A stretch of DNA of 64,000 nucleotides from Isoetes taiwanensis (GCA_021234155.1 JAJEKV010000189.1:355706-419705); one strand, 5' to 3'. Positions 10,038 through 49,152 are shown, counted from the first letter of the stretch. Made by a program: numbers and translations. Notes: generated by a model from the letters alone, not told the origin.

Positions 10038-11991
10038 CCTGACATAAAAATATAATGGAATGCTGTAAGAAATCGCTCTGCGTTAGATCGCGACCGCGAT
10101 CTGGTTCAGCACTCACTTCCACCGATGAGAGGCACGCACTCATGGTCCATGAAGAGCCAGTACTCCAAGGCAAATACTATATCGCGACCGCCAATCGTTA
10201 ACGGTTGGAGCGACGGGAAGCTCTCGATATCTTGAAACAGGTCCTAATCTTCTATACCAAAAATTAGGAGTTTTAAAAAGGTCCCGTTATGCTGCAAGTT
10301 CTCTAACAACATCAAGCAACGTGCATTTCCTTTATGCAACAACGTGCATTTTCTTTATGCAGCAAGAAAGTTCATACAAAAGTAACAGACCTATCAAAGG
10401 CATACAACAGAATGGAATCATTCTAGACAGACCTATTAAAGGCATATAACAATTCATGGAATAGAACAATGCAATGGAAGGTAAGTGACTTATCAAATTC
10501 ATGCAACAAATCATCCGGAAGAATACTTCATCATCACAAAAACTAGACAAAAGCATCGATGGGAATGGAATTATTCTGCATGCAGACCTATTAAAGGCAT
10601 ATAACAATTCATGGAATAGAACAATGCAATCAAAGGTAAGTGACTTATCAAATTCATGCAACAAATGATCGAAGAATACTACTGTTCCTAAAACAACAAG
10701 AATGCAACAGTAGGATGGAATAGTTATGCACAGACCCTATAAAGGCATGCAACGATTTGAGAAACAGAATTCGAACAGTAAATTTTAACATGCATTTCAA
10801 ATCCTGAGGTAGACAACGGTTCTTGCCTCAGACTTACCACTTATATATCGCCTAGTTGCTAGATTATGGTGGCGCCAAAGAGCCATTGCCTCTTAGCCGC
10901 CAGAGAAATCTCGAGCGCTGAGCTAGTAATTCCCTCGCGGAACTTGTTTGGAATGAATTGCTCCAAACACCGGGCATGGGCGGGCAAATTTCTTTTCAAA
11001 ATTCAAATCAATGTCCCTGTTGAATTCAAATTACAAATTCAAATTACAAGCACTATCCCTGTCGACATCTCCAACTATCTCACGTCCCGGCCTTTATGTT
11101 TATCGCGATCATCGCACATTTTGTAATACATATTCGGCCCCGACCGATCCCATCCTTATGATTCGGGAATTTACTGTCGACGGGGAATATTTTACCATAC
11201 CTTAATGCTAATACGCCAGGCATTTCGGACGGAAATTTATGACAACAAGGTTTTATGACCAGGCTTTTATGTCGTGGCATTTATGACAGTGCATTTATGA
11301 CGGGGGCATTTAAGAGGCACATTTATGGCGGCGCCACCGTATTAAATTCGCGACGCAAATTATGACGCATTTATGATAGGGCATTTATGGCGGCGCATTT
11401 ATGATCGCTGACGCCGGCCTACTTAAGCCCATTTCGCGAATTTTTCAAGATAGCCTCCCTTGCGCTTCAATATTCCAAAGGTGCCTTGAAAAAAATTCAG
11501 CGACTTGTGTCTCGATCAACCCTCCTTAAAGAAGGTATTTTCCGCGGCCATTTTTAGCACTAGTCAATTCACACCATTAGCATCTTAGATTTTCAATCAA
11601 AAGAGCTCGACAGATCGCGGTCCGCGATCCCAGCCGATCTCTATATGTATAAGTTTAAGGTCTATAGTCCTCTCGAAATCGCCGGGCGCGATTTACGAGC
11701 CGTTTATCAATAACGATAGTCTATAGTTATCTCAAGGATCACGACGGCGATCCTTGAGAACCTAACTTCTGAGGATATTCTTGTTTGCATTGCTTCCAAG
11801 GATCGCGATCGTGTTCCTTGAAAGGACTTTTGTTTTAACATGTTTGCTTACATATATCTTTATCGTTTGAGGTTTCAAGTTCCCTCACTAATCGCTTGCC
11901 GCGATTTCTTTGAGGGGTTGATTTATAAGTAGTAGCATATAGTTATCTAAAAGGATCGTGGTCGCGTTCCTTGGAGGCTCTTTATATTAAG
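10038..11991. repeat. Intergenic control region of array element, copy 3
   Basis: 1.95 kb between gene D (leftward) and gene A (rightward). Subrepeats at 10,320-10,760, TTCAAA repeats at 11,022-11,050, minisatellite at 11,225-11,420, hairpin cluster at 11,603-11,974. Confidence 0.8.
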
Positions 11992-12535
11992 ATGTTTGTT
12001 AACTTAAAATTAGCTAAACGTAAAAGCCATGGCGATGTCCTTAATCTTTTAATCATCTTCATGCGGCACTTGACCTCTTCGAGGGGCCAAATGTTGAACC
12101 CATGCGCATAGTAACTCGACAAAAGTCTAAGTGGTGCATGGAAATTGCACAGCAATACCACATATCAAAGGGATCGCAGGGAAAGACCTCGCCCCTCTTC
12201 TTCGGGACGTGAAAGGGGCCAGGTGACTTTGAACAGTTAAGGGCATCGTTGCCATGTGGGATGGTACGAAGAATAACGTGCAAGATGCTATTATATGTAG
12301 CGTAGAGACACACGGCGAGTTGCGGTTGTGGAGTACATCCCGCACGGCGTAACCACGACCCTTCCATCATGGTCGCAAGCAAACAGAACAAGCCAGCTAG
12401 TGGCAAGGGTGTGCCAACCAGTGCAAAGGGCTATGGTTGGATTCTGCCATCATATGATTCTTTGTCTCTCTCTCGGTATCAAGTGCCTTAGCAACAAACC
12501 TTGTGGGCCAGCAAGTGCGAAGGGATTATCGCGAG
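11992..12535 (+). pseudogene. Gene A, truncated 5' fragment
   Basis: N-terminal fragment of gene A beginning at ATG 11,992 and ending at the common deletion junction (filler about 12,536-12,550). Frames are broken. Confidence 0.63.
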
Positions 12536-12550
12536 TTAATGCGAGGAATG

Positions 12551-12808
12551 GAAAGTCTAAATGGAAAGCTCGCCGTGATCTTTCTCTCAGCTTTCGTGGT
12601 GACAGCAGCTGTACGTGGACTCCGGTTCACCATTCTGTACATCCTCTTGGGTGCCTTTTCGACTTCAATTTGCATGGCATAGGGTTCTGCTTCAATGACT
12701 GTCTCTCTCACAGTCTTTATGAGTGTCGACACAGCAACATTGTCTACTAACACTAAAGCATTAGACCACCTCACCAAGTCGTTACAACTGCGGCATTTCA
12801 AAGACAAG
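12551..12808 (-). pseudogene. Gene D fragment cut by the array border
   Basis: Keeps the segment NALVLVDNVAVSTLIKTVRE through KAPKRMYRMVNRSPRTAAVT (12,807-12,570). Array similarity stops abruptly at about 12,808, the left border of the central spacer. Confidence 0.62.
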
Positions 12809-13160
12809 CTTGGGCCGGTGTTTTCACCGGATTTTTGCTTTGTGTTTTTAGCGGATCTTGAAGCCTGTCATTTGCCACGGATTTTTGAAGCCCTGCTATG
12901 TTTTTGAAGCATCTGAAGCTTCGCCAGATCTGCGGAGGAAAAAACGTCCCCAACTTCTATATTGTAGGGGAATGGAGGTTGGGGCCTCCATTCCGGTTTC
13001 CAGGTGACCCGCTCCCGGCTAACGTCGGTCGCGGGACCCCACTGAAACCCCGGAATGGAGGCCCCAACCTCCATTCCCCTATACATTGCCTTCGCAAAAA
13101 ACCACACCCGATCTAGGGCGTGATCTGGACCGTCTGGCATGTTAGATCAAATTTGGGCCC
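12809..13160. repeat. Border sequence with nested inverted repeat
   Basis: Immediately inside the array border. A 32-nt perfect inverted repeat lies at 12,965-12,996 and 13,050-13,081 with a 53-nt spacer, and each arm is itself a hairpin (GGAATGGAGG and CCTCCATTCC around a 6-nt loop). A small CCGGTG/CACCGG hairpin sits at 12,816-12,831. No protein is recognised. It could be a small foldback element. Confidence 0.6.
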
Positions 13161-28865: not shown

Positions 28866-29600
28866 ATTTTTTTTTTGTTTTAAGGACGAAAGCCAAGAAA
28901 TTTATTAATCAGATAAAAAGTACAAAATTTACATGTCTCATCTAACTGTATAAGCACCAAAGGATGCCACAGGAGCACGAGCCTGGAGCACAATTACTTA
29001 CTCCAGAATAGGAGACTAATGATAAGAATCAATTCGAAGATACTGAATCCAGATGCATTCCATCATTTCTGATTCAAGGGAGGAACACTCGTAGGCTGTC
29101 AATATCTTTTTCTGGGCCACCGTGATAACACCGCGTGCAGAAGAATTAATGCCCTGAAAGATGTGGTGTCTGCGACGCTCCTATATCGACCATAGGAGCC
29201 AAATGGAACCAATATGGAATGCCTTTTGTTTAGCTGCAGGCCATGCGTTAGGATAGGACGCCAAAAGAATGCATCGGCAGTCCAATGTACTGTTAAACAA
29301 ACCTTGTAGCCGGGACCATGCTGGTTGAACCTCAGGACAATCAAAGAGACAATGCTCAAGAGTCTCGACATCTGAAAGACAGGGTGGGCATACTACAGAT
29401 ATGCGAGGATCATAGTGATGTCGGAAGGCATTAACCCGCAAGCACATGTGGATAACCTGCCACCACAAAGATGAGAGACTTTAGAGTGGAGCAACCCTAT
29501 CCCAAAGCCATCGCCATATGCGACACAAAGTAGGTCATTGGGAACTGGAAAAGGTGCCACCCATCCGCAACCTGGAGGGCGTGGTGCTAAAAGCGGGATT
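28866..29600 (-). mobile_element. LINE (non-LTR retrotransposon) 3' end, 5'-truncated
   Basis: On the minus strand a reverse-transcriptase zinc-binding (zf-RVT) tail is readable: VNAFRHHYDPRISVVCPPCL, then DVETLEHCLFDCPEVQPAW, giving the C-x2-C...H...C pattern, then IWLLWSI (29,468-29,181). Further upstream FQFPMTYFV and MAMALG (about 29,560-29,510) fit the preceding part in another frame. The element ends after a 3' UTR in an A-rich tail (T-run on the plus strand at 28,867-28,876). Plant LINEs encode an ORF2 polyprotein; only its last part is present, with frameshifts. Confidence 0.8.
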
Positions 29601-30146
29601 TAGTTAATTAGAGAAATTTGGTTTTCTCAATCGACAACGAAATAGGTCGCATTACCCTCTGAAAGGGAAAATTTGTTATTGTCAAGCAAATTGCAATGGC
29701 AGTGAGCACACTTTTGGCTCGCCATATTTTTATCCGCGGGAAAAGAACTCTATGGGCATGCCTTCATTGTGTTGGAACACAAAACTTAGAACAAGCATAG
29801 CGTCACCAGTGCTCGTGGAAATCGCCATGACTTGATGTTTTTGACCAGGTAGGCAAGGCGTGGGTCTTTGAAGTGCAAGCTTTATGGGAGGAGTTTAACA
29901 TCATTCCCATTTCTCGAACATGTCGAGAAGATCGCGATGGCGATCTTCCCGATAAGTTCAGTAATGCTATTTGGATATGAATACACAACTTTCGGATAAT
30001 AATACACAAGTTCAGTAATTCTAATCGGTAAAAAAAGTAACTAAATATACACAAGTTTAATAGAAGCACAAAACTTTTATAACATTTCAAAATGATTACA
30101 TGAGCTTTCACATCCAATAAAGTCAGAATACTTCACTAAGTCTGTT
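29601..30146. other. Sequence between LINE tail and gene A stop
   Basis: No gene seen. It holds one hairpin of the array type at 29,930-29,951 (GAAGATCGC..GCGATCTTC), suggesting it still belongs to the 3' flank of the gene A element. Confidence 0.4.
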
Positions 30147-33100
30147 CTATTGAGTCTCTGCAACAGAATCTGGAGTAATGCCAAGTTCCTTGGCCATTCT
30201 ATCTGCGTGTTCCTTTCCTAAGGCAAGGGTATGTGAGAGATTCATTTCGGAATATCCTATAATTGGAGGGGGAGGGATCTCTACGTCCATTGCATTGGCG
30301 ATATCCTGCATACGCCCTGAGCACTGTGTATCCATCAATTTCTCCTGTGGATCAATAGAGAATCCAGACATGTCCAGTAATTTCCTTCTCTTGATTCCTT
30401 CGATGTTTTTTGTGGTCTTCAGACTGAGAGTCCGCTTCAGACGTACCCACGTATTCAAACTGGGTAGATTGTTTGTTGAGCATACCACTTGTTCAGTACC
30501 TCGAGCTTTTCGAATATTTGATTAAGTGCAGCCGAGTCCTTTTCCGTATTCTCTAGCAAAGCCCGAGTTTCCTGTAGCCTCTGTTTCCAGAATCTCGTCC
30601 ATTTTACTCAGATCGGTCTCCTGAGTTATTTTGAGGTTCGGCGCATCTGCATCGTTAGGGACTTCTTTCTGAATTTCTTCTTCTTCTTCACACTTAGGCC
30701 TTGCCATTTTCTCTAATGTCTCGAAGAAGGATCTCAAAAACCTGCACACCTTGTCGTCATACTCCAAGGAAACGCTGCATTTCCCTTGCATCAGAGCCAC
30801 TCTAGAAGTTGTCCGCGCGGAAAAGAAGTCAAGAATAGAACCATCATCAGGAACCAACTCCTTGACCATGGCGTAAATATATGACGTTTTTAAGAACGAA
30901 ATCCCCTTCCATAGTTGCCCATGAGATCTTGGGCTTACCTGTGAAGTATTCTTGATACTTTTTCTTCGTTTTCGCGTCCACCTCCTCATTACCTGTGATT
31001 GGATACTTTGGAAGAGGTGTGCCTCTAGGTGCATTGGTCCCCTGAGTTAGTCGCAGCTCCAACCTGGGCTGCACAGGCAACATACGCGCCTCACTTCTAT
31101 TGATCGTTACGTGGGTGATGTAGTATTGAAATTCCTTAACCATTTTCTTGCTAACCCACCCCTGTTCTTCATAAGCACCCGTGGAGATATATGAACTCCT
31201 TTAGATCTGACTTTGGTTGTACAAGCAGTTTGGCAAGTGGATAGATCTCAAGAATATGATGATGTGATACACCTTTGCAGTTGTCATGTTTGCAATCCTG
31301 CTGAAAAGATCTGTATTTTTCACTTCCCGCATGTTGAAACTGCGCATGTCAATAAAAACCATTGTAGCATTTTCTGATACTTGCCCCCGCACAAGAATAC
31401 CAGATTTTGTTACTACTTGCACGATGTTTCTCTTTCTTTCTGTTTCCTTGCTTCATCTGGTTTGAGTATAGCTAGAATAGCTTCTAAGAAAACAAATCGG
31501 AAGATTTTCCTCGGGCGGATCCTTGTTATAGTTGGCCTTGATATAATCAAAATTCATACCGTTATATCAAGTAGCCTCTCTTCATTGAGTTCGAAATAGT
31601 GCCACAAGCTCCTCCATGCTGGCAGTATTTTTATCTAGCAAGCAATTGGCATATGATAGCACCTCACGGTGCATCAAGGTCGAGTTCCGGTTCTAAGACC
31701 CTCTATTTACTGATCATGCACTGTATATCCGTGTTGCACCTTCAAAAAATGTCTTTCCTTCCAAAATCTCGTCCATAAGTTGGGCTACCTCCGCATTATT
31801 CATGCCAAAGGTACACGAAAATGTTTTATTGAAAAAATCTTTTGTTGGCGTTTAAAGCAGGTTCCCCATGATCATCTGATAGCTTCCTGCCCCACTTATT
31901 TACAACCTCCATGAACTTTTTCCCATGGTTCGTCGTGCATAAACGTAAACCGCTTTTCGCCTTCAAGTTCTTTTGGCCTTCAATGTAGTGGTCGCCACTT
32001 CAACAAAATCCTGTAATGAAAAGCTGGTTAGGATCGCGGTCGCGATCAGTTTCAGCAAAAAGTGAATAGGCTAACCTTCCAAGCTGATGTTACTGCTGTT
32101 CACGTTGGTCCTTGTGGAGGGCAACCGAAAGCCTTGTGCTGATTACGCAGTTGTTGAAGCTTCTCTACTAGTGGCTCTCTGTACACAGTGTCCGCAATTA
32201 TGTCGCTGCATTGAATAGATAATTGGATGTACTCCCCGTTGGGCCGTGGTTTCCATTGAGCACGCGTTCTTCTCTTAAGGTAAACTTTAGCAAACTCCAG
32301 GCGTTGTTCAACGCTGCCCATCACAGAGCAAAGGATCTGAGCAGCAAATATGTTGTGGTTTCCAGAAATAATGTAGAATTTTTTGTTGTCAAGCTCCTCA
32401 GGTCGTGACCAAGTAATTATTTTCCTGAGAAAGAAAGTAATTTAGTATTTTAATACATAACACTAATGTATGTATAATGTATGTATACAAAGTACTTACT
32501 TTGTGATGGGGTCAAAAGGCACAACATCTGCCGGAGTAAGAACCTCTGTAGGGCACTTCTTGAAGCTCCTTATTAGAGTTTGCACATGATCGTTAGAACG
32601 AAATCTGTGCGTCATTATAGCTGGAGCTGTCTCACAGTCGAAGATACTTACTTTTGTGAACCAATTCACCCCCATTGGATAATATTTTTTAAACTCTTCA
32701 AGTTTTTTGTTTTTTTTTCTTACGCAGCTTTTTTTTCCTTAGCGGGATTGAACTTGAGTTCCTCGAGGCATCACAGTAGCGTGAAGGCCAAGTTATTGCA
32801 GTTGAAGTGGCTATTGCGACACCTGATAAGGTAGGCGTAGATGATGTAGAACGCTGGCTCTTATCATCTATATTTAACTTCCGAAGTTTAATCTTGAACA
32901 TATGTGTCTTCTTTTGTACTGGTTCTTCCTTTTCAGTAGAATGTACTATAGGGGGAGGCATGAGCAATTTCGTAGTAGTAGGATCCACAACTGCTGAAGA
33001 AATTGGATTAGCAGAGCGAGTCACATATGGTTCTTTCGGTGCAGATGATTCACCAACTGCAGCCCAATGGAACAACATCCTTTTAGCAATCGCATCGCAA

Positions 33101-33719
33101 CCAATTTGTATCCATACGCGAGGGTAGTTTGTTGTCTTTAGTAGCCTTTAAGGCACAAGAAGGAGGCTTCTTATCTACCGACAATCCCTTTCTGCACTTG
33201 CTGAAGCCCAGAAGAAGGTCTATGTTGCACTTGATACCAGAGAGAGACAAAGAATCATATGATGGCGTATCCAACCATAGCCCTTTTGCACCGGTTTGGC
33301 ACACCCTGCCACTAGCCGCTTGTTCGTTTGCTTGCGACCATGATGGAAGGTCGTAGTTACGCCATCGCAAGATGTACTCCACAACCGCAAACTGCTGCGT
33401 GTCCTCTACGCTACATATAATAGCATCCCCGCATTATTCTTCGTACCCGCCACATGGCAACGATGATGCCCAATCTGTTCAAAGTCATCCACCCCTTTCC
33501 TATCACTGAAGAAGAGGCAGAGGTCCTTCCTGCGATCCCCTTTGATATGTGGTATTGCACGTGCAATTTCCATGCACCACTTTTGACTTTTTGTCGGAGT
33601 TACTATGCGCATGGGTTCAACGTTTGGCCCTCGAAGAGGGTCAAGTCTTTGCATGAAGATGATTAAAGGTTAAGGACATCGCCATGGCTTTTACGTTTAG
33701 CTAATTTTAAAACAAACAT
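30147..33719 (-). pseudogene. Gene A, long copy: ParB-like plus degenerate N6/N4 DNA-methyltransferase-like protein of the array element
   Basis: Start MFVLKLAKRKSHGDVLNLL at 33,719; stop at 30,147; about 1,140 codons if spliced. Parts in order: unrecognised N-terminus (33,719-33,100; shared with all short units); a linker ending in a lysine-rich patch near 32,720; YYPMGVNWFT, HVQTLIRSFKKCP and TPADVVPFDP (32,690-32,500); then KKFYIISGNHNIFAAQ (about 32,385-32,335), resembling the ParB pattern of x-L-x-x-SI followed by GxH..AA. A 75-nt intron (32,425-32,499, GT-AG) joins these in frame. MHDEPWEKFMEVVNKWG and MNNAEVAQLMDEILEGK follow. MVFIDMRSFN (31,363-31,334) is where a DPPY motif would be expected, and SILDFFSARTTSRVALMQGK (about 30,839-30,780) resembles methyltransferase motif I (DFFSGxGTT) with its glycines lost. 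An acidic tail (EEEEE) and a coiled-coil-like end close it. Several frameshifts break the frame. The methyltransferase order (IV then I) fits the beta class. Activity looks lost as read. Confidence 0.6.
32011..32075 (-). other. Probable second intron of gene A with array-type hairpin
   Basis: GT donor at 32,075 and AG acceptor at 32,012-32,011, 65 nt. It contains a palindrome GATCGCGACCGCGATC (about 32,031-32,047), the same core as the hairpins of the intergenic region. A TGA lies just upstream in the exon (about 32,100), so this splice model is tentative. Confidence 0.4.
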
Positions 33720-35664
33720 CTTAATACAAAGAGCCTCCAAGGAACGCGCGACCGCGATCCTTTAGATAACTATATGCTACTACTTATAAATCAACCCCTC
33801 AAAGAAATCCCGGCCGCGATTAGTGAGGGCACTTGAAACCTCAAACATATAAAGATATATGTAAGCAAACATGTTAAAACAAAAGTCCTTTCAAGGAACG
33901 CAACTTGCGATCCTTGAAGCAATGCAAACAAGAATGTCCTCAGAAGGTTCTCAAGGATCGCTACCGCGATCCTTGAGATAACTATAGACTATATATACGT
34001 TATTGATAAACGCTCTCCGAAATCACGCGATTTAGGAGGACTATAGACCTTAAACTTATACGTAGAGATCGATAGCATCGCGGTCGCGGTCTGTCGAGCT
34101 CTTTGATTGAAAATCTAAGATGCTAATGGTGTGAATTGACTAGTGCTAAAAAAAAAACGAGGAAAATACCTTCTTTAAGGAGGGTTGATCGAGACATGAA
34201 GGCTGAATTTTTTCGAAGACGCTGGATTATTGATTGCGCAAGGAGATACTGAAAAAAATCGTGAAATGGGCTTAAGTAGGCCGGGCGCCAAATCATAAAT
34301 GCGCCCGCCATAAATGCCCCGGCATAAATGCCTCGTCATAATTGCGCGTCGTCCGAGAATTGCGCGTGGCGAATTTAATGCCGGTAAAGCACCATAAATG
34401 TGCCCTCTTAAATGCCACTCATCATAAATACACTGGCATAAATGTACATGTCATAAATGCACCTCATAAATGCACTCGCCATAAATGCCCCGACATAAAA
34501 AGCCTCTGTCATAAACGCACTGTCATAAAATTCGTCCCGAATGCCCCCGCCATTAAGGCGGTGCTGAAAAATATTCCGTCCGACGTAAAATTCCCCCGGC
34601 CATAAGGACCGGGGATACTACGGCCGAATATCGCTTTGTACAAAATGTAATGCGATGAATCGACAAACCCAAAAGGGCCCGGACGTGGAGGGTTGGAGAT
34701 ATCGGCCGAGGATAGTGCTTGTAATTTGAATTTGAATTTGAATTTGTAATTTGAATTCGGCGGGGACGATGATTTTGATTTTGAAAAAGAAATTTGCCCA
34801 CCCATGCCATGGTGTTTGGGCAATTCATTTCCAAAACAAATTTATAGGGAATTACTAGCTTCGATCCACTTTCGGGAGATTTCTCAGAGGCGCTAAGGGA
34901 GGCGGTGGCTCCACCATAATCTAGCAGTATCGACATATAAGTGGTGAATAAGGGCAAGAACCGCTGTCTACCTCAGGACTTGAAATGCATGTTAAAATTC
35001 TTGTTCAATTCTATTTCTCAAATCGTTGCATGCCTTTGTAGGGTTTTTGCATAACTATTCCATTCTACTTTTGCATTCTTGTCTGTCTAGAATAATTCCA
35101 TTCTACTGATGCTTTCGTCTAGTTTTTGTGACAGTAGTATTCTTCTGGATGATTTGTTGCATGAATTTGATAAGTCACTTACCTTCCATTGCATTGTTCT
35201 ATTCCATGAATTGTTATATGCCTTTAATAGGTCTGTCTAGAATAATTCCATTCTGTTGTATGCCTTTGATAGGTCTGTTGCTTTTGTATGAACTTTCTTG
35301 CTGCATAAAGAAAATGCACGTTGCTTGATGATGTTAGAGAACTTGCAGCATATCAGGACCTTTTTAAAACTCCTAATTTTTGGTACAGAAGGTTAGGACC
35401 GTTCAGCATATCGGGAGCTTCCGTCTGCTCAACCAGATCGCGGTCGCGATATAGTGCAAATGCCTTGAGTACCGCCTCTTCGGACCGGCCCAGTGATGCG
35501 TGCCTCTACCGTGGTCCGCAGAGTGTTGAACCAGATCGGCGGTCGCGATCTAACGCAGCAATTTCCAGGTGCGTTGAGTTGTCCCATCTTTAGATTGGCA
35601 GATAGTGCTCCACCAAATCGCCACGGCGATTTCTTACAGCATTCCATTATATTTTTATGTCAGG
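33720..35664. repeat. Intergenic control region of array element, copy 4
   Basis: Lies between the long gene A (leftward) and a gene D fragment (rightward). Six-hairpin cluster 33,736-34,100, minisatellite 34,292-34,560, TTTGAA array about 34,725-34,755, only one complete 152-bp subrepeat (35,090-35,240), then three more GATCGC-type palindromes before the D start (about 35,431, 35,528, 35,615). Confidence 0.82.
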
Positions 35665-36443
35665 ATGGACGAATTGAGGTCTATTTTATTCAATGCGACC
35701 AAGGTGGGGGAGGCTCGTCTACACAACTTCACAAAGCACCATAACTTGCCCTTGCCCGAGGGTTTCGCTGTAGTGTCTATGGAAGTCATTCTTGACGGGA
35801 GCATTCCGTTGCCTTATCTGGAACCCGAGATTTCAATACTTGCGAGTAGTCCGGAGGGAGTTTTATTTGTGGCCCGAGAGAGATGTAATCTGGGCTTCAA
35901 GATAACAACTTTATCTCCACTCTGGACGATAAAAAGCTGAATTGGTTGTTGTTAGAGGATCCCGACTCCTTTGGTTCACTACATCGTCAAGGGGGCATTT
36001 CTAGGGAAGAACTTCTCGAGAGGAATTGCACACTCTTGCATGAATGCTGTGATATGCCTTATGGCTTGGGTGTGATCATCTTTACCAACCCTAATCAAGA
36101 AGTTGCTGATACTAGATTAGGTGATGACTTCCTGGTTGCCACCTTGATGAAGCTATGCCCCATGCCAGAAAAACCGTCAATGAGATTCCAAGCTTGTGCT
36201 GAAATGCCACAGTTGCACGACTTGGTGAGGTGGTCTAATGCTTTAGTGTTAGTAGACAATGTTGTTGTGTCGACACTCATAAAGACTGTGAGAGAGAGTC
36301 ATTGAAGCAGAACCCTATGCCATGCAAATTGAAGTCGAAAAGGCACCCAAGAGGATGTACAGAATGGTGAACCGGAGTCCACGTACAGCTGCTGTCACCA
36401 CGAAAGCTGAGAGAAAGATCACGGCAGCTTCCATTTAGACTTT
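35665..36443 (+). pseudogene. Gene D, truncated 5' fragment
   Basis: Begins at MDELRSILFNATKVG. The first frame ends at 35,940; the next (35,946-36,305) has GISREELLERNCTLLHEC, GLGVIIFTNPNQEVADTRLG and RWSNALVLVDNVVVSTL. It ends at the common deletion junction (filler 36,444-36,457), so no HTH or DUF7869 part remains. Confidence 0.68.
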
Positions 36444-36457
36444 CCATTCTGCATTAA

Positions 36458-37011
36458 CTACTGACAATCCCTTTCTGCACTTGCTGAAGCCCACAAGGTT
36501 TCTGTTGCACTTGATACCAGAGAGAGACAAAGAATCATATGATGGCAGAATCCAACCATAGCCCTTTGCACTGGTTGGCACACCCTTGCCACTAGCCTGA
36601 AGCGATTCCCGCTTTGCTTGCGACCATGATGGAAGGGTCGTGATTCGCCATTGCGGGGATGTATTCCACAACCGCAACCCGCTGCGTGTCCTCTACGCTA
36701 CATATAATAGCATCTTGCACGTTATTCTTCGTACCATCCCACATGGCAACGATGATGCCCAACTGTTCAAAGTCATCTGACCCCTTTCCTGTCCTGAAGA
36801 AGAGGCAGAGGTCTTTCCTGCGATCCCCTTTGATATGTGGTATTGCCTATGCAATTTCCATGCGCCACTTCCGACTTTTGTCAGGAGTTACTATGCGCAT
36901 GGGTTCAACATTTGCCCCTCGAAAAGAGGTCAAGTCTTTGCATGAAGATGATTAAAGGTTAAGGACATCGCCATGGCTTTTACGTTTAGCTAATTTTAAG
37001 TTAACAAACAT
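36458..37011 (-). pseudogene. Gene A, truncated 5' fragment
   Basis: Starts at ATG complement 37,009-37,011 and keeps the N-terminal part only, ending at the junction with gene D. Frames are interrupted. Confidence 0.63.
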
Positions 37012-39052
37012 CTTAATACAAAAGAGCCTCCAAGGAACGCGACCGCGATCCTTTAGATAACTATATGCTACTACTTATAAATCAACCCCTCAAAGAAATC
37101 CCGGCCGCGATTAGTGAGGGCACTTGAAACCTCAAACATATAAAGATATATGTAAGCAAACATGTTAAAACAAAAGTCCTTTCAAGGAACGCTAATCACG
37201 ATCCTTGGAAGCAATGCAAACAAGAATGTCCCTCAGTTAGGTTCTCAAGGATGCGTCGCGATCCTTGAGATAACTTCTAGACTATAATGTTATTGATAAA
37301 TCGCTCTCGAAATCACGCCCGCGATTTCGAGAGGGACTATAGACCTAAACTTATACACATAGAGATCGATAGCATCGCGTCGCAATTGCCGAGCTCTTTG
37401 ATTGAAAATCTAAGATGCTAATGGCGTGAATTGACTAGTGCTAAAAAAACGAGGAAAATACCTTCTTTAAGGAGGGTTGATCGAGACATGAAGGCGCTTT
37501 TAATTTTTTCAAGACGGATTATTCGGGATTGGCGCAAGGAGATCAGAAAAAAAAATCGTGAAATGGGCTTAAGTAGGCCGGCGTCGCCAGTCATAAATGC
37601 GCCGCCATAAATGCCCTGTCATAAATGCACGTCATAATTGCACGTGTCGAATTGCATCGTATAATTTAATGCCGCGGGCATCCGCCATAAATGTGCCCTC
37701 TTAAATGCCTGGCTATAAATGCACTGGCTATAAATGCACCTGCTATAAATGCACTCGTCATAAATGCCCCGACATAAAAGCCCCCGGCTTGGCGCAAATG
37801 CACTGGCTATAAAAATCCTGCCGAAATGCCCCCGGCATTAAGATCGGCGCTAAAAATATTCCCCGTCGACAAAAAATTCCCGCCATAAGGACGGGGATAC
37901 GGCGGGGGGCGCCTGCATAAAATGTACGATGATGCGACAAACCGCAAAGGGCCCGGGACGTGAGGCAGTTGGAGATATCGACAGGGATAGTGCTTGTAAT
38001 TTGAATTTGAATTTGAATTTGAATTTGTAATTTGAATTCGACAGGGACATTGATTTTGATTTTGAAAAGAAATTTGTCCAGTGTTTGGGCAATTCATTCC
38101 AAACAAATTTATAGGGAATTACTAAGCTCACCGCTTCGAGATTTCTACAGAGGCGCCAAGGGAGGCTACTTTGGCGCTCACCATAATCTAGCAACTAGGC
38201 GACATATAAGTGGTGAATAAGGGCAAGAACCGCTGTCTACCTCAGGACTTGAAATGCATGTTAAAATTCTTTGCTCAATTATGTTTCTCAAATCGTTGCA
38301 TGCCTTTGTAGGGTCTGTGCATAACTATTCCATTCTACTTTTGCATTCTTGTTGTTTTAGGAACAATAGTATTGTTCTCGATCATTTGTTGCATGAATTT
38401 GATAAGTCACTTACCTTCCGATTGCATTGTTCTATTCCATGAATTGTTATATGCCTTTAAAAGGTCTCTCTAGAATAATTCCATTCTCACCGATGCTTTC
38501 GCCTAGTTTTTGTGATGATTAGTATTCTTCTCTCGATGATTTGTTGCATGAATTTGATAAGTCACTTACCTTCCATTGCATTGTTCTATTCCATGAATTG
38601 TTATATGCCTTTAATAGGTCTCGCCTAGAATAATTCCATTCATTGTATGCCTTTGATAGGTCTCATTGCTTTTGTATGAACTTTCTTCTTTGCATAAAGA
38701 AAATGCACGTTGCTTGATGATGTTAGAGAACTTTAAAAGATATCGGGACCTTTTTAAAACTCCTAATTTTTGGTACAGAAGGTTAGGACCGTTCAGCATA
38801 TCGGGAGCTTCCGTCTGCTCAACCAGATCGCGGTCGCGATATAGTGCAAATTTGTCTTGGAGTACTGGCTCTTCTTTGGCGACCGTGAGTACGTGCTCTC
38901 ACCGGGTCCGTGAGTGTTGAACCGCATCGCGGTCGCGATCTAACGCAGCAATTTCAGTGCGTTGAGTTGTCCCATCTTTAGATTGGCGGATAGTGCTCCA
39001 CCAAATCGCCACGGCGATTTCTTACAGCATTCCATTATATTTTTATGTCAGG
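37012..39052. repeat. Intergenic control region of array element, copy 5
   Basis: Hairpins 37,030-37,396, minisatellite 37,590-37,830, TTTGAA array 37,997-38,040, two 152-bp subrepeats (38,250-38,640). Confidence 0.82.
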
Positions 39053-39826
39053 ATGGACGAATTGAGGTCTATTTTATTCAATGCGACCAAGGTGGGGGAG
39101 GCTGCGTCTACACAACTTCACAAAGCACCATAACTTGCCCTTGCGAGGGTTTCACTTGTAGTGTCTATGGAAGTCATTCTTGATTTAGCATTCCGTTGCC
39201 TTATCCGGAACCGAGATTTCAATACTTGCGAGTCCGGAGGGAGTTTTATTTTGTGGCCCCGAGATGTAACGGGCTTCAAGATAACACTTTGTCTCCACTC
39301 TGCACTCGACGGATAAAAAGTCTAATTGGTTGTTGTTAGAGGATCCCGACTCCCTTTGGTTCACTACATCGTCAAGGGGCATTTCTAGGGAAGAACTTCG
39401 AGAGGAATTGCACACTCTTGCATGAATCTTTGTGATATGCCTTATGGCTTGGGTGTGATCATCTTTACCAACCCTAATCAAGAAGTTCCGATACTAGATT
39501 AGGGTGATGACTTCCTGGTTGCCACCTTGATGAAGCTATGCCCCATGCCGGAAAAACCGCCAATGAGATTCCAAGCTTGTGCCGAAATGCCACGGTTGCA
39601 ATGACTTGGTGAGGTGGTCTAATGCTTTAGTGTTAGTAGACAATGTTCTTTGTGTCGACACTCATAAAGACTGTGAGAGAGAGTCATTGAAGCAGAACCC
39701 TATGCCATGCAAATTGAAGTCGAAAAGGCACCCAAGAGGATGTATAGAATGGTGAACCGGAGTCCACGTCATAGCTTTGTCACCACGAAAGTGAGAAAAG
39801 ATCACGACGGCTTCCATTTAGACTTT
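39053..39826 (+). pseudogene. Gene D, truncated 5' fragment
   Basis: Same fragment as at 35,665 with more indels. Several changes are GCTG to CTTTG type (for example 39,429, 39,649, 39,775), which shift the frame and may be read errors. Confidence 0.62.
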
Positions 39827-39841
39827 CCATTACGCATTAAC

Positions 39842-40391
39842 TTCCGACAATCCCTTCTCGCACTTGCTTTGAAGCCCACAAGGTTTCGTTGCACTTGATA
39901 CCAGAGAGAGACAAAGAATCATATGATGGCAGAATCCAACCATAGCCCTTTGCACTGGTTGGCACACCCTTGCCACTAGCCTGCTTGTTCTGTTTGCTTG
40001 CGACCATGATGGAAGGGTCGTAGTTCTGCCATTGCGGGATGTATTCCAAACTGCAAATGCTGCGCGTGTCCTCTACGCTACATATAATAGCATCTTTGCA
40101 CGTTATTCTTTTCGTACCATCCCACATGGCAACGATGATGCCCAATCGTTTCAAAGTCATCGACCCCTTTCCCATCCAAGAAGAGGCAGGTCTTTCCTGC
40201 GATCCCCCTTTGATATGTGGTATTGCCTTATGTAATTTCCATGCGCCACTTCCAATTTCTTTTGTCGAGTTACTATGCTTGGGTTCAACATTTGGCCCTC
40301 GAAAGAGGTCAAGTCTTTGCATGAAGATGATTAAAAGGTTAAGGACATCGCCATGGCTTTTACGTTTAGCTAATTTTAAGTTAACAAACAT
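39842..40391 (-). pseudogene. Gene A, truncated 5' fragment; best open copy of its N-terminal part
   Basis: One uninterrupted 184-codon frame from 40,391 to 39,837: MFVNLKLAKRKSHGDVLNLL, AWKLHKAIPHIKGG, LGIIVAMWDGTK, AIICSVEDT and YGWILPSYDSLSLSGIKCN. This long frame across the whole fragment is the best evidence that the minus strand is the coding one here. I do not recognise the domain. In the long gene A copy the same segment leads directly into the ParB-like part. Confidence 0.66.
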
Positions 40392-42415
40392 CTTAATACA
40401 AAAGAGCCTCCAAGGAACGACCAGCGATCCTTTAGATAACTATATGCTACTTTATAAATCAACCCCTCAAAGAAATCCCGGCGCGATTAGTGAGGGCACT
40501 TGAAACCTCAAACATATAAAGATATATGTAAGCAAACATGTTAAAACAAAAGTCCTTTCAAGGAACGCGACCGCGATCCTTGGAAGCAATGCAAACAAGA
40601 ATGTCCCTGTGTTAGGTTCTCAAGGATCGCGGCCGCGATCCTTGAGATAACTATAGACTATACGTTATTGATAAACCGCTCTCAGAAATCACGCCCGCGA
40701 TTTCGGAGAGGACTATAGACCTTAAACTTATACACATAGAGATCGATAGCATCGCGGTCGCAATTCTGTCGAGCTCTTTTGATTGAAAATCTAAGATGCT
40801 AATGGTGTGAATTGACTAGTGCTAAAAAAAACGAGGAAAATACCTTCTTTAAGGAGGGTTGATCGAGACATGAAGGCGCTGAATTTTTTCGAAGACGCTG
40901 GATTATTCGATTGCGCAAGGAGACTGTACTGAAAAAAAATCGTGAAATGGGCTTAAGTAGGCCGGCGTCGCCAGTCATAAATGCGCCGCCATAAATGCCC
41001 TGTCATAAATGCACGTCATAATTGCACGTGTCAGAATTGCACGTGCGAATTTAATGCCGGTGGCGCCCGCCATAAATGTGCCCTCTTAAATGCCCTGTCA
41101 TAAATGCACTGCATAAATGCACATCATAAATGCCACGACATAAAAGCCACATCATAAATGCACATCATAAAATTCCCGTCACGAAATGCCCCCGGCATTA
41201 AGGCGGGCGCTGGAAAAATATTCCACGTCGAGACGAAAATTCCCGTCATAAAGGCGGGGATACGGTACATCGAGAATACGCCGTACAAAATGTCGATGGC
41301 GACGACAAAACCGCAAAGGGCCCGGGCGTGAAATGATTGGAGATATCGGCGAGGGATAGTGCTTGTAATTTGAATTTGAATTTGTAATTTGAATTTGACA
41401 GGGACATTGATTTTGATTTTGAAAAGAAATTTGCCCAGTGTTTGGGCAATTCATTCCAAAACAAATTTATAGGGAATTACTAGCTCAAACCGCTTTCGGG
41501 AGATTTCTCTGAGGAGGCAAAGGGAGGCGGTACATTTCGCGCCACCATAATCTAGCAGCTAGACGACATATAAGTGGTGAATAAGGGCAAGAACCGCTGT
41601 CTACCTCAGGACTTGAAATGCATGTTAAAATTTACTGTTCGAATTATGTTTCTCAAATCGTTGCATGCCTTTGTAGGGTCTCGTGGCATAACTATTCCAT
41701 TCTACTTTTGCATTCTTGTTGTTTTAGGAACAATAGTATTGTTCTGGATCATTTGTTGCATGAATTTGATAAGTCACTTACCTTCGATTGCATTGTTCTA
41801 TTCCATGAATTGTTATATGCCTTTAAAAGGTCTGTCTAGAATAATTCCATTCTACTGATGCTTTAATCTAGTTTTGTGCCGATGAGGTATTCTTCCGGAT
41901 GATTTGTTGCATGAATTTGATAAGTCACTTACCTTCCATTGCATTGTTCTATTCCATGAATTGTTATATGCCTTTAATAGGTCTGTCTAGAATAATTCCA
42001 TTCTGTTGTATGCCTTTGATAGGTCTGTTGCTTTTGTATGAACTTTCTTGCTGCATAAAGAAAATGCACGTTGCTTGATGATGTTAGAGAACTTGCAGCA
42101 TATCAGGACCTTTTTAAAACTCCTAATTTTTGGTACAGAAGGTTAGGACCGTTCAGCATATCGGGAGCTTCCGTCTGCTCAACCAGATCGCGGTCGCGAT
42201 ATAGTGCAAACCGCCTTGGAGTACTGGCTTCTTCTGACCGCGTGAGTACGATGCCTCTACCGTAAATTAGTGGAGTGTTGAACCAGATCGCGGTCGCGAT
42301 CTAACGCAGCAATTTCCAGGTGCGTTGAGTTGTCCCATCTTTAGATTGGCAGATAGTGCTCCACCAAATCGCCACGGCGATTTCTTACAGCATTCCATTA
42401 TATTTTTATGTCAGG
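40392..42415. repeat. Intergenic control region of array element, copy 6 (reference copy)
   Basis: Six hairpins: 40,410-40,433; 40,463-40,496; 40,559-40,583; 40,619-40,646 (a perfect 28-nt palindrome); 40,679-40,710; 40,744-40,771. They share an ATCGCG..CGCGAT core while outer stems differ but stay self-complementary (AAGGA/TCCTT, CTCAAGG/CCTTGAG, CTCTC/GAGAG). Then minisatellite 40,975-41,200, TTTGAA repeats 41,365-41,395 and two 152-bp subrepeats (about 41,690-41,840 and 41,845-41,990), one with a 17-nt palindrome GAACAATAGTATTGTTC. Further palindromes stand before the D start at about 42,184, 42,283 and 42,366. The region would have to hold both divergent promoters and possibly a replication or transposition site; that role is inferred from position only. 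Confidence 0.82.
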
Positions 42416-43201
42416 ATGGACGAATTGAGGTCTATTTTTATTCAATGCTCGACCAAGGTGGGGGGAGGCTCGTCTACACAACTTCACAAAGCACCATAAC
42501 TTGCCCTTGCCCGGGGTTTGGGCCAGTAGTGTCTATGGAAGTCATTCTTGACGAGCATTAGTTGCCTTATCCGAACCCGAGATTTCAATACTTGCGGAGA
42601 GTCCGGAGGGAGTTTTATTTTGTGGCCCGAGAGATGTAACCGGGCTTCAAGATAACATCTTCTTCTCCACTCTGCCACGGGCCGGAAAAAGTGAATTGGT
42701 TGTTGTTAGAGGATCCCACGACTCCCTTTGGTTCACTACGCCGCAAGGGGGCATTTCTAGGGGAAGAACTTCTCGAGAGGAATTGCACACTCTTGCATGA
42801 ATGCCGTGATATGCCTTATGGCTTGAGTGTGATCATCTTTACCAACCCTAATCAAGAAGTTCTTGATACTAGATTAGGTGATGACTTCCGTTGCCACCTT
42901 GATGAAGCTATGCCCCATGCCGTAAAAAGCCGCCAATGAGATTCCAAGCTTGTCTTGAAATGCCACCGGTTGCACGACTTGGTGAGGTGGTCTAATGCTT
43001 TAGTGTTAGTAGACAATGTTGTCGCGGTCGACACTCATAAAGACAAATGGAGAGAGAGTCATTGAAGCGTAACCCTATGCCATGCAAATTGAAGTCGAAA
43101 AGGCACCCAAGAGGATGTACGTAATGGTGAACCGAGTCCACGTGCATTTCCGGTCACCCGAAAGCCGAGAGAAAGATCACGGCGGCTTCCATTTAGACTT
43201 T
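42416..43201 (+). pseudogene. Gene D, truncated 5' fragment
   Basis: Same fragment as the other short units, ending at the common junction (filler 43,202-43,214). Frame broken at several CG/CHG sites. Confidence 0.62.
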
Positions 43202-43214
43202 CCATTCGCATTAA

Positions 43215-43771
43215 CCACCGACAATCCCTTTCTGCAGACTTGCTGAAGCCCACAAGGTTTCTGTTGCACTTGATACCAGAGAGAGACAAAGAATCATATG
43301 ATGGCAGAATCCAACCATAGCCCTTTGCACTGGTTGGCACACCCTTGCCACTAGCCGGCTTGTTCTCGTTTTGCTTTGCGACCATGATGGAAGGGTCGTG
43401 GATTACGCCATTGCGTGGATGTATTCCACAACCGCAATCTGCTTGCGTGTCCTCTACGCTACATATAATAGCATCTTGCACGTTATTCTTCCGTGCACCA
43501 TCCCACATGGCAACGATGATGCCCAACCTGTTCAAAGTCATCGGCCCTTTCCTGTCACCGAAGAAGAGGGAGGTCTTTCTGCGATCCCCTTTGATATGTG
43601 GTATTGCCTATGCAATTTCCATGCGCCACTTCCGACTTTTGTCAGGAGTTACTATGCGCATGGGTTCAACATTTGGCCCTCGAAAGAGGTCAAGTGCTGC
43701 ATGAAGATGATTAAAAGGTTAAGGACATCGCCATGGCTTTTACGTTTAGCTAATTTTAAGTTAACAAACAT
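43215..43771 (-). pseudogene. Gene A, truncated 5' fragment
   Basis: N-terminal part of gene A from ATG complement 43,769-43,771; a frame 43,541-43,059 runs from the A stump across the junction. Ends at the shared deletion point. Confidence 0.63.
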
Positions 43772-45804
43772 CTTAATACAAAAGAGCCTCCAAGGAACGC
43801 GACCGCGATCCTTTAGATAACTATATGCTACTACTTATAAATCAACCCCTCAAAGAAATCCCGGCCGCGATTAGTGAGGGCACTTGAAACCTCAAACATA
43901 TAAAGATATATGTAAGCAAACATGTTAAAACAAAAGTCCTTTCAAGGAACGCGACCGCGATCCTTGGAAGCAATGCAAACAAGAATGTCCCTGTGTTAGG
44001 TTCTCAAGGATCGCGGCCGCGATCCTTGAGATAACTATAGACTATACGTTATTGATAAACCGCTCTCAGAAATCACGCCCGCGATTTCGGAGAGGACTAT
44101 AGACCTTAAACTTATACACATAGAGATCGATAGCATCGCGGTCGCAATTCTGTCGAGCTCTTTTGATTGAAAATCTAAGATGCTAATGGTGTGAATTGAC
44201 TAGTGCTAAAAAAAAACGAGGAAAATACCTTCTTTAAGGAGGGTTGATCGAGACATGAAGGCGCTGAATTTTTTCGAAGACGCCGATTATTCGATTAAGC
44301 GAGGAGACTTGCTTGAAAAAATCGTGAAAATGGGCTTAAGTAGGCCGCCGCCAATCATAAATCTTGTATACATAAATGCCCCCTCATAAATGCACGCCAT
44401 AATTGCATCGCGGTCATAATTGCGTCGGGTGATTTAATGCCGGTGGCGCCCGCCATAAATGTGCCCTCTTAAATGCCACACATAAATGCACTATAAATGC
44501 ACCCGCCATAAATGCACCATCATAAATGCCCCGACATAAAAGCCCCGTCATAAATGCACTGTCATAAAATTCCCCGTCCGAAATGCCCCAAGATTAAAGG
44601 CGGCGAAAAATATTCCCCGTCAGACGTAGAAAATTCCCGTCATAAGACAGATACGGTTTTGTCGAATACGCTTCCATACAAAATGTACTGATGATGTGCG
44701 ACAAACCGCAAAGGGCCGGGACGTGAGGCAGTTGGAGATATCGACAGGGATAGTGCTTGTAATTTGAATTTGAATTTGTAATTTGAATTCGACAGGGACA
44801 TTGATTTTGATTTTGAAAAGAAATTTGCCCAGTGTTTGGGCAATTCATTCCAAACAAATTTATAGGGAATTACTAGCTCAGCTGCTCGGGAGATTTCTAC
44901 AGAGGCGCAAGGGAGGCGGCTGCTGGCGCTCACCATAATCTAGCAGCTAGACGACATATAAGTGGTGAATAAGGGCAAGAACCGCTGTCTACCTCAGGAC
45001 TTGAAATGCATGTTAAAATTTACTGTTCGAATTATGTTTCTCAAATCGTTGCATGCCTTTGTAGGGTCTGTGCATAACTATTCCATTCTACTTTTGCATT
45101 CTTGTTGTTTTAGGAACAATAGTATTGTTCTGGATCATTTGTTGCATGAATTTGATAAGTCACTTACCTTCGATTGCATTGTTCTATTCCATGAATTGTT
45201 ATATGCCTTTAAAAGGTCTGTCTAGAATAATTCCATTCTACTGATGCTTTCGTCTAGTTTTTGTGACAGTAGTATTCTTCTGGATGATTTGTTGCATGAA
45301 TTTGATAAGTCACTTACCTTCCATTGCATTGTTCTATTCCATGAATTGTTATATGCCTTTAATAGGTCTGTCTAGAATAATTCCATTCTGTTGTATGCCT
45401 TTGATAGGTCTGTTGCTTTTGTATGAACTTTCTTGCTGCATAAAGAAAATGCACGTTGCTTTGATGATGTTAGAAACTTGCGATATCGTCGACCTTTTTA
45501 AAACTCCTAATTTTTGGTACAGAAGGTTAGGACCGTTCAACATATCGGGAGCTTCCGTCTGCTCAACCAGATCGCGGTCGCGATATAGTGTGCCTGCCTT
45601 GGAGTACTTCGGCTCTTCATCGGACCGTGAGTACGCGGCTCTACCTCGTGGTCCGTGAGTGCTGAACCAAATCAGCGGTCGCGATCTAACGCAAAGACAA
45701 TTTCCGTGGTGCGTTGAGTTGTCCCATCTTTAGATTGGCGTGATAGTGCTCCACCAAATCGCCACGGCGATTTCTTACAAAGATTCCATTATATTTTTAT
45801 GTCG
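43772..45804. repeat. Intergenic control region of array element, copy 7
   Basis: Hairpins 43,791-44,157 (perfect 28-nt palindrome at 44,003-44,030), minisatellite 44,355-44,600, TTTGAA array 44,758-44,790, two 152-bp subrepeats 45,060-45,395. Confidence 0.82.
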
Positions 45805-46588
45805 ATGGGCCGAATTGAGGTCTATTTTATTCAATGCGACCAAGGTGGGGAGGCTTCGTCTACACAACTTCACAAAGCACCATAACTTGCCCTTGCAGGG
45901 TTTCTACCAGAGTGTCTATGGAAGTCATTCTTGACGGGAGCATTCCGTTGCCTTATCTGGAACCCGAGATTTCAATACTTGCAGAGTCCAGAGGGAGTTT
46001 TATTTTGTGGCCCGAGAGAGATGTAACTGGGCTTCAAGATAACACTGCTGTCTCCACTCTGCCTGGACAGATAAAAAAGCTGAATTGGTTGTTGTTAGAG
46101 GATCCCACGACTCCCTTTGGTTCACTACATCGTCAAGGGGGCATTTCTAGGGAAGAACTTCTCGAGAGGAATTGCACACTCTTGCATGAATGCTGTGATA
46201 TGCCTTATGGCTTGGGTGTGATCATCTTTACCAACCCTAATCAAGAAGTTGCTGATACTAGATTAGGTGATGACTTCCTGGTTGCCACCTTGATGAAGCT
46301 ATGCCCCATGCCAGAAAAACCGTCAATGAGATTCCAAGCTTGTGCTGAAATGCCACAGTTGCACGACTTGGTGAGGTGGTCTAATGCTTTAGTGTTAGTA
46401 GACAATGTTGCTGTGTCGACACTCATAAAGACTGTGAGAGAGAGTCATTGAGGCGTAACCCTATGCCATACAAATTGAAGTCTAAAAGGCACCCAAGAGG
46501 ATGTACGAATGGGTGAACCGAGTCCACGTCACAAACTTTGTCACCACGAAAGTCGAGAGAAAGATCACGCACTTCCCATTTAGACTTT
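45805..46588 (+). pseudogene. Gene D, truncated 5' fragment; best open copy
   Basis: A 205-codon uninterrupted frame (45,834-46,451) covers most of the shared N-terminal region: VSMEVILDGSIPLPYLEPEI, ILWPERDVTGLQDN, LLLEDPTTPFGSLHRQGG, LLERNCTLLHECCDMPYGLG and LVRWSNALVLVDNVAVST. Such conservation of an open frame over several copies supports real coding ancestry. Ends at the junction at about 46,589-46,603. Confidence 0.7.
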
Positions 46589-46603
46589 CCATTCTCGCAT
46601 TAA

Positions 46604-47158
46604 CCATCGACAATCCTTTCTACGCGACTTTGTCAAGCCCACAAGGTTTCAAGGTTGCACTTGATACCAGAGAGAGACAAAGAATCATATGATGGCGTAA
46701 TCCAACCATAGCCCTTTGCACCGGGTTGGCACACCCTGCCACTAGCCCAGCTTTGTTCTGGTTTGCTTGCGACCATGATGGAAGGGTCGTAGTTCTGCCA
46801 TTGCAGGATGTATTCCACAAACTGCAACTGCTGCGTGTCCTCTACGCTACATATAATAGCATCTTGCACGTTATTCTTCGTACCATCCCACATGGCAACG
46901 ATGATGCCCAACTGTTCAAAGATCATCCACCCCTTTCCCGTCCCAAGAAGAGGCAGAGGTCTTTCCTGCGATCCCCTTTGATATGTGGTATTGCCTATGC
47001 AATTTCCATGCGCCACTTCCGACTTTTGTCAGGAGTTACTATGCGCATGGGTTCAACATTTGGCCCTCGAAAGAGGTCAAGTGCTGCATGAAGATGATTA
47101 AAAGGTTAAGGACATCGCCATGGCTTTTACGTTTAGCTAATTTTAAGTTAACAAACAT
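46604..47158 (-). pseudogene. Gene A, truncated 5' fragment
   Basis: N-terminal part of gene A from ATG complement 47,156-47,158 to the shared junction. Includes LGIIVAMWDGTKNNVQDAII and YDPSIMVASK in the frame 47,016-46,633. Confidence 0.64.
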
Positions 47159-49152
47159 CTTAATACAAAAGAGCCTCCAAGGAACGCGACCGCGATCCTT
47201 TAGATAACTATATGCTACTACTTATAAATCAACCCCTCAAAGAAATCCCGGCCGCGGTTAGTGAGGGCACTTGAAACCTCAAACATATAAAGAGATATAT
47301 GTAAGCAAACATGTTAAAACAAAGTCCTTTCAAGGAACGCGACCACATCCTTGGAAGCAATGCAAACAAGAATGTCCTCAGAAGAGTTCTCGGCGATCGC
47401 GTCGCATCCTTGAGATAACTATAGACTATACGTTATTGATAAACCGCTCTCAGAAATCACGCCCGCGATTTCGGAGAGGACTATAGACCTTAAACTTATA
47501 CACATAGAGATCGATAGCATCAGCCGCGAATTGTCTGTCGAGCTCTTTTGATTGAAAATCTAAGATGCTAATGGTGTGAATTGACTAGTGCTAAAAAAAA
47601 CGAGGAAAATACCTTCTTTAAGGAGGGTTGATCGAGACATGAAGGCGCTTGAATTTTTTCAAGACGCCGGATTATTCGATTAAGCGCAGCGAGACTGTCT
47701 TGAAAAAATCGTGAAATGGGCTTAAGTAGGCCGGCCGCCCATAAAAATGCGCCGCCATAAATGCCCCCTCATCATAAATGCATCAGCCATAATTGCACGC
47801 GTCGAATTGCATCGCGGCGAATTTAATGCCGGTGGCGCCCGCCATAAATGTGCCCTCTTAAATGCTCTGTCATAAATGCACATCGCCAAAATGCACCATC
47901 GCCGAATGCCCCACATAAAAGCCTCCGTCATAAATGCACCTGTCCATAAAATTCCGCCGAAATGCCAAGATTAAGATCGACCGAAAATATTCCCCCGCCG
48001 ACGTAAATTCCCCATCCATAAGGACGGATACGGGTTGCCGGATACGCCATTATAAAATGTACGATGACTGCGACAAACCGCAAAGGGCCGAGGACGTGGG
48101 CAGCTTGGAGATATCGACAGGGATAGTGCTTGTAATTTGAATTTGAATTTGAATTTGAATTTGTAATTTGAATTCAGCCAGACATTGATTTTGATTTTGA
48201 AAAGAAATTTGTCCAAAGGTTTGGGCAATTCATTCCAAACAAATTTATAGGGAATTACTAGCTCACCGCTTCGAGATTTCTACAGAGGCGCTAAGGAGGC
48301 GGTCATCGGTCACCCACCAATCTAGCACTAGACGACATATAAGTGGTGAATAAGGGCAAGAACCGCCGCTACCTCAGGACTTGAAATGCATGTTAAAATT
48401 TACTGTTCGAATTATGTTTCTCAAATCGTTGCATGCCTTTGTAGGGTCTGTGCATAACTATTCCATTCTACTTTTGCATTCTTGTTGTTTTAGGAACAAT
48501 AGTATTGTTCGGATCATTTGTTGCATGAATTTGATAAGTCACTTACCTTCGATTGCATTGTTCTATTCCATGAATTGTTATATGCCTTTAAAAAGGTCCG
48601 TCTAGAATAATTCCATTCTACCGATGCTTTCGCCTAGTTTTTTGTGACAAGAGTATTCTTCTCTCGATGATTTGTTGCATGAATTTGATAAGTCACTTAC
48701 CTTCCATTGCATTGTTCTATTCCATGAATTGTTATATGCCTTTAATAGGTCTGTCTAGAATAATTCCATTCTGTTGTATGCCTTTGATAGGTCTGTTGCT
48801 TTTGTATGAACTTTCTTGCTGATAAAGAAAATGCACGCTGTTTGATGATGTTAGAGAACTTGGCAAAGATATCGTGGACCTTTTTAAAACTCCTAATTTT
48901 GGTACGAAGGTTAGGACCGTTCAAAGATATCAGAGAGCTTCAATACCAAATCCGGATCGCGGTCACATATAGTCAAATGCCTTGGAGTACTGCTCTTCTT
49001 GGACCGCGGAGTACGCGCCTCTACCGTGGTCCGTGAGTCTTTGAACCAAATCATGGGGTCGATCTAACGCAAAGAATTTCAGTGCGTTGAGTTGTCCCAT
49101 CTTTAGATTGGCCGCCAAATCGCCACGCGATTTCTTACAAAGATTCCATCCT
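47159..49152. repeat. Intergenic control region of array element, copy 8, at right array border
   Basis: Hairpins 47,177-47,545, minisatellite 47,740-47,990, TTTGAA array 48,132-48,175, subrepeats 48,420-48,770. Array similarity stops at about 49,152, just before the position of a gene D start. This outermost copy is the most diverged. Confidence 0.8.

Follow-up and report, generated by a model that had tools for sequence, protein, structure and literature searches.

A DUF7869 transposon of Isoetes taiwanensis with a ParB/methyltransferase-derived partner gene and arrays of family-specific palindromes

Sola1 transposons make 4-bp target-site duplications (TSDs), and KDZ transposons have a KDZ transposase and an 8-bp TSD. 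For green and red algal transposons with ParB-methyltransferase genes, the sources are reportedly Iyer et al. 2011 and Petroll et al. 2025. Here we analyze a 64,000-bp stretch of the quillwort Isoetes taiwanensis (C1006:355706-419705, hereafter the window), which holds a decayed, tandemly multiplied copy of a ~10.2-kb DNA transposon with two divergent genes, A, derived from a ParB-methyltransferase protein, and D, a DUF7869 transposase candidate. In Ectocarpus, Sola1-1_Ec32 encodes a protein of ~1,100 aa, ParB-like with an N4C/N6A methyltransferase, on the strand opposite its transposase; the authors suggest that the protein binds and epigenetically modifies its own element, and they cite related ParB-methyltransferase proteins from transposons of green and red algae (PMC12477816, 2025). 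VANC proteins bind arrays of short motifs in the upstream regions and introns of their own VANDAL element (PMC5735166), and KDZ and other fungal transposons carry TET/JBP dioxygenases (PMC12730594).

With such genes already published from transposons of brown (Sola1), green and red algae (PMC12477816), the kind of element is known. An earlier note on this DNA, made from the sequence alone, knew of no plant element described with this organisation, and this survives only in a narrower form: abundance in a vascular plant, a catalytically dead branch and family-specific palindromes were not found described in the literature searched, a search that was not exhaustive. Sola1-1_Ec32 and the quillwort element both place a ParB-like/methyltransferase gene opposite a transposase, a likeness of organisation. 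Sola1-1_Ec32 is 21.5 kb and rare, with 2 intact copies, whereas the quillwort element is 10.2 kb and very abundant, in a vascular plant; in the window's family (family I), unlike in Sola1-1_Ec32, the catalytic motif has been lost, and there are palindrome arrays, of which the available text makes no mention for the Ectocarpus element. The green and red algal transposons, as cited there, share the pairing of ParB and methyltransferase domains. The KDZ and other fungal transposons also carry a DNA-modification gene, but theirs is a dioxygenase, the transposases are other and there is no ParB; with its 4-bp TSD and DUF7869 match, the quillwort element is not a KDZ transposon.

The full family I element is ~10.2 kb long and occurs very many times in this genome (1,658,258,908 bp in 1,110 contigs). 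The complete copy E35 (~10.25 kb) runs from the left terminal inverted repeat (TIR) through two small open reading frames (ORFs), D, the intergenic region and A to the right TIR, and in the complete reference copy D reads leftward and A rightward. Comparison of copies with their flanks, together with short cuts at further loci, gave TIRs of 19 bp (AAGCATGATTTCATTAATT... at the left and ...AATTAACGAAATCATGCTT at the right). The earlier note had proposed a genome search for full-length copies with termini and TSDs; of 13 complete copies compared at their ends, 11 have exact 4-bp TSDs (AATT, AAAG, AACT, TTAG, AATC, AGTA, TCAA, ATGA, AATT, TGTT and AATA) and the remaining two have one mismatch. 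A right end initially inferred for E34 and E36 was discarded as not being the terminus, since other copies run ~200 bp further to the TIR. By its 4-bp TSD and TIRs the element is probably of the Sola1 kind, while D by sequence matches DUF7869 only.

In the complete copies both genes lie within common TIR/TSD boundaries, which bears out the proposal of a eukaryotic element pairing a transposase with a partner derived from ParB and DNA modification. The same boundaries speak to the opposite idea, that A and D are unrelated genes joined by nesting and that A resembles ParB and methyltransferases by chance. The family I protein (A-I) on its own indeed has no Pfam or PDB match, but in addition to the shared boundaries the A-D pair recurs in other DUF7869 families and colinear profile alignment scores exceed those of shuffles, and we regard chance nesting as extremely improbable.

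The small ORFs between the left TIR and D are present in some subfamilies. In L035, a locus with near-intact genes, they are two paralogous frames of ~80 aa with TATA-like boxes (L035:352-594 and L035:949-1179), and family searches with their products gave no match. The left 545 bp of the copies at C1041:11329001.. and C1067:983071.. are 97.8% identical, though their D genes are ~75% identical, and the left end's best 40 matches in the genome are 98-100% alike. From this, left ends seem to have been exchanged between subfamilies.

The DUF7869 likeness that the earlier note saw in D is firm. D matches PF25273 (DUF7869) in Pfam with E=2.3e-42 and 145 bits against a curated cut-off of 26, no Pfam MULE (Mutator-like element) transposase model matched it, and in L035 it is an open frame of 849 codons. 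A first look at the genome gave 9,909 DUF7869 candidates, the top 150 of which all scored above the cut-off. MDQ.KT and LQLDN are common to the aligned D proteins of family I and of a second family described below, and GHTHD.ID is visible in both. From these motifs we predict that D is a DDD-type transposase, with putative catalytic aspartates in MDQNKT, LQLDN and GHTHDDIDALF. At L033:828-2370 a single stop codon separates the 3′ part of D from an adjoining Copia-type polyprotein of the same strand.

The A-D pairing extends beyond family I. Three high-scoring DUF7869 loci whose open frames are long (L085 to L087) have neither the family I palindrome nor a match to A-I. Two of them, L086 and L087, have a divergent gene with a ParB-like part (GGNHSFKARRQL ... 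EEAKIVANTHNADNEY) followed by a methyltransferase (ADLPYG ... DAFSGSGTT), and L085 carries the 5′ part of such a gene; we designate these family II, and L091 is a third, distinct DUF7869 family (family III). In families II and III the methyltransferase motifs are intact, with ADLPYGF or ADIPYGF followed by DAFSGSGTT, that is, motif IV before the S-adenosylmethionine (SAM) motif I. The family II methyltransferase matches PF01555 (E=2.7e-16), phrog_67 (5e-17) and CcrM (PDB 6pbd; 3.7e-9 as a single sequence and 8.6e-12 as a profile). Families II and III thus share the IV to X-I motif order and the conserved motifs of CcrM and the other beta-class N6A-N4C methyltransferases, but the quillwort genes are eukaryotic, split by introns and fused to a ParB-like part, and family I is without motif IV. 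Of 1,444 first-look PF01555 candidates in the genome the top 150 were all above the cut-off, and between these and the best 150 of the 9,909 DUF7869 candidates there are 24 methylase/DUF7869 pairs within 15 kb, where 0.41 are expected, a lower bound for the genome given that sampling; 22 of these 24 are divergent.

A-I is built to the same plan. Near-intact copies (L033 to L038) and a spliced L035 model, whose coding part is interrupted by two GT-AG introns (64 and 65 bp), give a protein of ~1,140 residues from at least three exons and a probable short 5′ exon, in which a ParB-like part, a helical linker and a methyltransferase-like part follow one another. The ParB-like segment aligns with families II and III at an hhalign probability of 84 (P=7.4e-6), a match that links A-I to the family II protein (A-II) and not directly to bacterial ParB. 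Compared at full length, A-I and A-II are colinear, with scores of 32.3 for the ParB part and 38.7 for the methyltransferase part, where 20 column shuffles reached at most 24.8 and a cross control was null. This colinearity with clear ParB-like/methyltransferase genes beside other DUF7869 genes supports descent of A-I from a prokaryotic-type ParB-methyltransferase protein, as judged from profile alignment. The earlier reading of A as ParB-like and beta-class methyltransferase-like therefore stands as ancestry, but motif IV is lost and no curated ParB model was passed. In nearly all copies IDMRS or IDIRG occupies the motif IV position, so that the methyltransferase part of A-I is probably not an enzyme. 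The ratio of nonsynonymous to synonymous substitution (dN/dS) between L035 and L037 is 0.18 for A overall, 0.12 for the ParB part and 0.08 for the methyltransferase-like part, indicating purifying selection on A-I in this pair. Together, low dN/dS and the replaced motif IV suggest that A-I is probably functional though not catalytic. Weak matches of A-I to Cas9_PI, perilipin and ZAP-70 were judged to be chance. A tblastn search of phage sequences with A-I found no match, nor did scans of viral contigs with A1, A2 and A3; the scan with A4 gave one match of 23%, an ordinary distant methyltransferase.

Each family has its own palindrome of 16-22 bp: RATCGCGNNCGCGATY in family I, AAGTGTATTCCGGAATACACTT in family II and AGTATGAATTCATACT in family III. 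The earlier note had missed these sites, of which the window holds 44 of family I (at most 2 mismatches) against 0.22 expected, every one within element-derived DNA. L035 has 9 where 0.04 are expected; some precede D, others precede A at intervals of 61-64 bp, and the rest are in intron 2 and past A. Exact matches in the genome number 1361 for family I and 1810 for family II, against 5 and 0 for reversed-pattern controls. The family I palindrome is present in intron 2 of A in 27/27 extracted copies, and 1-3 palindromes lie close to the right end of family I copies. In family II the palindrome, often repeated at ~42-bp steps, precedes A and is also found in the intron that separates the ParB from the methyltransferase exons, and in family III three copies ~115 bp apart occupy the intron following the ParB exon (one locus). 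The intron after the ParB exon therefore carries the family's own palindrome in families I, II and III, and the promoter region does so in I and II. No family's palindrome was found in the checked copies of the other families. At C85:126900-127211 six exact family I palindromes are clustered, several of them 34 bp apart, more densely than elsewhere.

From the established element structure, TSDs, gene content, homology, selection and palindrome arrays, we infer that this is probably a decayed cut-and-paste transposon whose A protein binds the element's own palindromes, marking or shielding the element and setting expression of A and D. Binding by A is the most economical reading of the arrays, and A is most likely a self-recognition, anti-silencing or regulatory palindrome-binding protein. 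We hypothesize that A would bind the palindromes of its own element, both those of the A and D promoters and those of the intron that follows the ParB exon, acting by binding in family I and by binding plus N6A/N4C methylation in families II and III, and would thereby mark or shield its element from host silencing and set A and D expression. This mode of action would be much like that of VANC proteins for VANDAL transposons. The comparison is drawn because family-specific sites, in upstream regions and introns, stand beside a family-specific DNA-binding or DNA-modifying protein. Both systems have an accessory DNA-binding protein (putative in the quillwort), noncoding motif arrays in the same element and motifs that differ by family (PMC5735166). 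VANDALs, however, are MULEs, and D is a DUF7869 protein without a MULE match; VANC motifs are short and form direct arrays, whereas the quillwort has palindromes of 16-22 bp and a protein derived from ParB and a methyltransferase.

The same sites can be read in other ways. Family I sites in the D promoter region and the 1-3 near the right end, along with the linkage and divergence of A and D in several families, would fit palindromes that serve D, or an A-D complex, much as subterminal repeats do, with A a transposition cofactor instead of an epigenetic factor. Subterminal sites should flank both ends, however, and the left 4.4 kb of L035 is without any family I palindrome, which disfavours simple subterminal repeats; arrays also lie within A introns in all three families, and we consider this reading unlikely. 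Grouping of sites upstream of both genes, at ~42 and 61-64-bp spacings that would put many of them on one helix face, would also suit an A that is a transcriptional autoregulator, a repressor or copy-number brake of the common A/D promoter region, with no anti-silencing role. We doubt this alternative, which leaves unexplained both the intron arrays and the full methyltransferase kept in families II and III. More tentatively, and as a possibility that we hold short of an even chance, self-recognition by A may form a rapidly diversifying code, in which each family's ParB-methyltransferase reads its own palindrome, kept in the same A intron and, in families I and II, also in the promoter region, so that marking is confined to copies of the one family; family I would then have a catalytically dead but selected reader, and the other families a live source of N6-methyladenine (6mA) or N4-methylcytosine (4mC).

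Several points weigh against A as a palindrome-binding ParB-methyltransferase derivative. Binding of A to the palindromes and its effect on expression are predictions, and the family I sites close to the right end and in the promoter region of D would also allow D to be the binder. A-I searched alone matched nothing in Pfam, PHROG or PDB, and its methyltransferase part aligned alone is weak (P=1e-3). PF02195 (ParB_N) hit nothing over its curated cut-off in the genome and left the A pieces unmatched, and the ParB-like part of A-II matched only DUF6551, under the cut-off (E=0.001). With every curated ParB model falling short of its cut-off, the name ParB is mainly a motif-based label, backed by weak matches. 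The Sola1 placement, too, is a probable one, drawn from the TSDs and TIRs.

In the window itself every copy of A and D is interrupted by stops and frameshifts, and intact or near-intact copies lie at other loci such as L035. ORF fragments and the L035 model place gene A, decayed, at 30147..33719 on the minus strand; it starts at ~33.7 kb and ends with a stop codon at 30,147, in keeping with the coordinates of the earlier note. Its methyltransferase-like segment (30720..31460, minus) has IDMRS where DPPY (motif IV) is expected and ILDFFSARTTS at the motif I position; intron 2 (32011..32075, minus) contains an exact palindrome, GATCGCGGTCGCGATC, at 32032-32047; and the ParB-like segment (32100..32738, minus), with RSNDHVQTLIRSFKKCPTEVLTPADVVPFD and then FYIISGNHNIFAAQ, is interrupted by intron 1. 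The intergenic region that separates the start of A from that of D (33720..35664, ~1.9 kb) has palindromes at 33744, 33806, 33956 and 34076 on the A side and at 35436 and 35616 on the D side, and has at least 40 further genome matches (the best 40 of 88 first-look candidates). ORF calling agrees with a rightward D start, its ATG at 35,665 falling within the ORF 35578-35940, and the D 5′ part in the first forward-array unit covers 35665..36436 on the plus strand.

That A and D repeatedly flank the same intergenic region, as had been noticed, is real, but the copies are units of tandem arrays and not separate insertions. The ~3.38-kb unit, made up of the A 5′ part, the intergenic region and the D 5′ part, is mostly 85-90% alike between copies and forms two arrays, one forward with five units (33171..49149, plus) and one inverted with about three (788..12813, minus). 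The two long D copies reported earlier are present, on the minus strand: the longest, from 1 or 7 to 2,331, reaches the DUF7869 region and runs past the window start, and the second lies at 8651..10076. Other genome matches to the intergenic region look single-copy, unlike the opposed tandem arrays here. The right TIR of the window element is decayed (29591..29621, minus; 3 mismatches in 19), with the alignment end and the TIR pattern both at 29591, where the flank is CTAA on the plus strand, or TTAG in element orientation; the right-end match is C1006:385302-385490. A perfect left TIR lies just beyond the window at C1006:353481. An inversion may have split a single element into the two arrays, but the left flank, TTTA, does not match the right flank, TTAG, as a TSD.

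Elsewhere in the window, positions 55967-56422 form a MITE-like (miniature inverted-repeat transposable element) hairpin from a 226-nt inverted repeat with a 4-nt loop and 81% complementarity. A 1.7-kb direct repeat (59681-61387 and 62290-64000) is 90.6% identical, and two-copy tandem repeats occur at 21337-21728 (196-bp unit) and 25681-26352 (345-bp unit).

Genuine enzymatic 6mA or 4mC in land plants is disputed, and transposon self-recognition against host silencing is known for few systems. One plant genome here holds very many copies of an element that carries either a DNA methyltransferase of bacterial type or a dead derivative of it, along with short, family-specific candidate target sites that are open to direct test. 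Self-recognition and self-marking by an element thereby become testable in a land plant, and, if the code proposed above is true, families II and III would be live sources, within a vascular plant, of 6mA or 4mC of the bacterial type.

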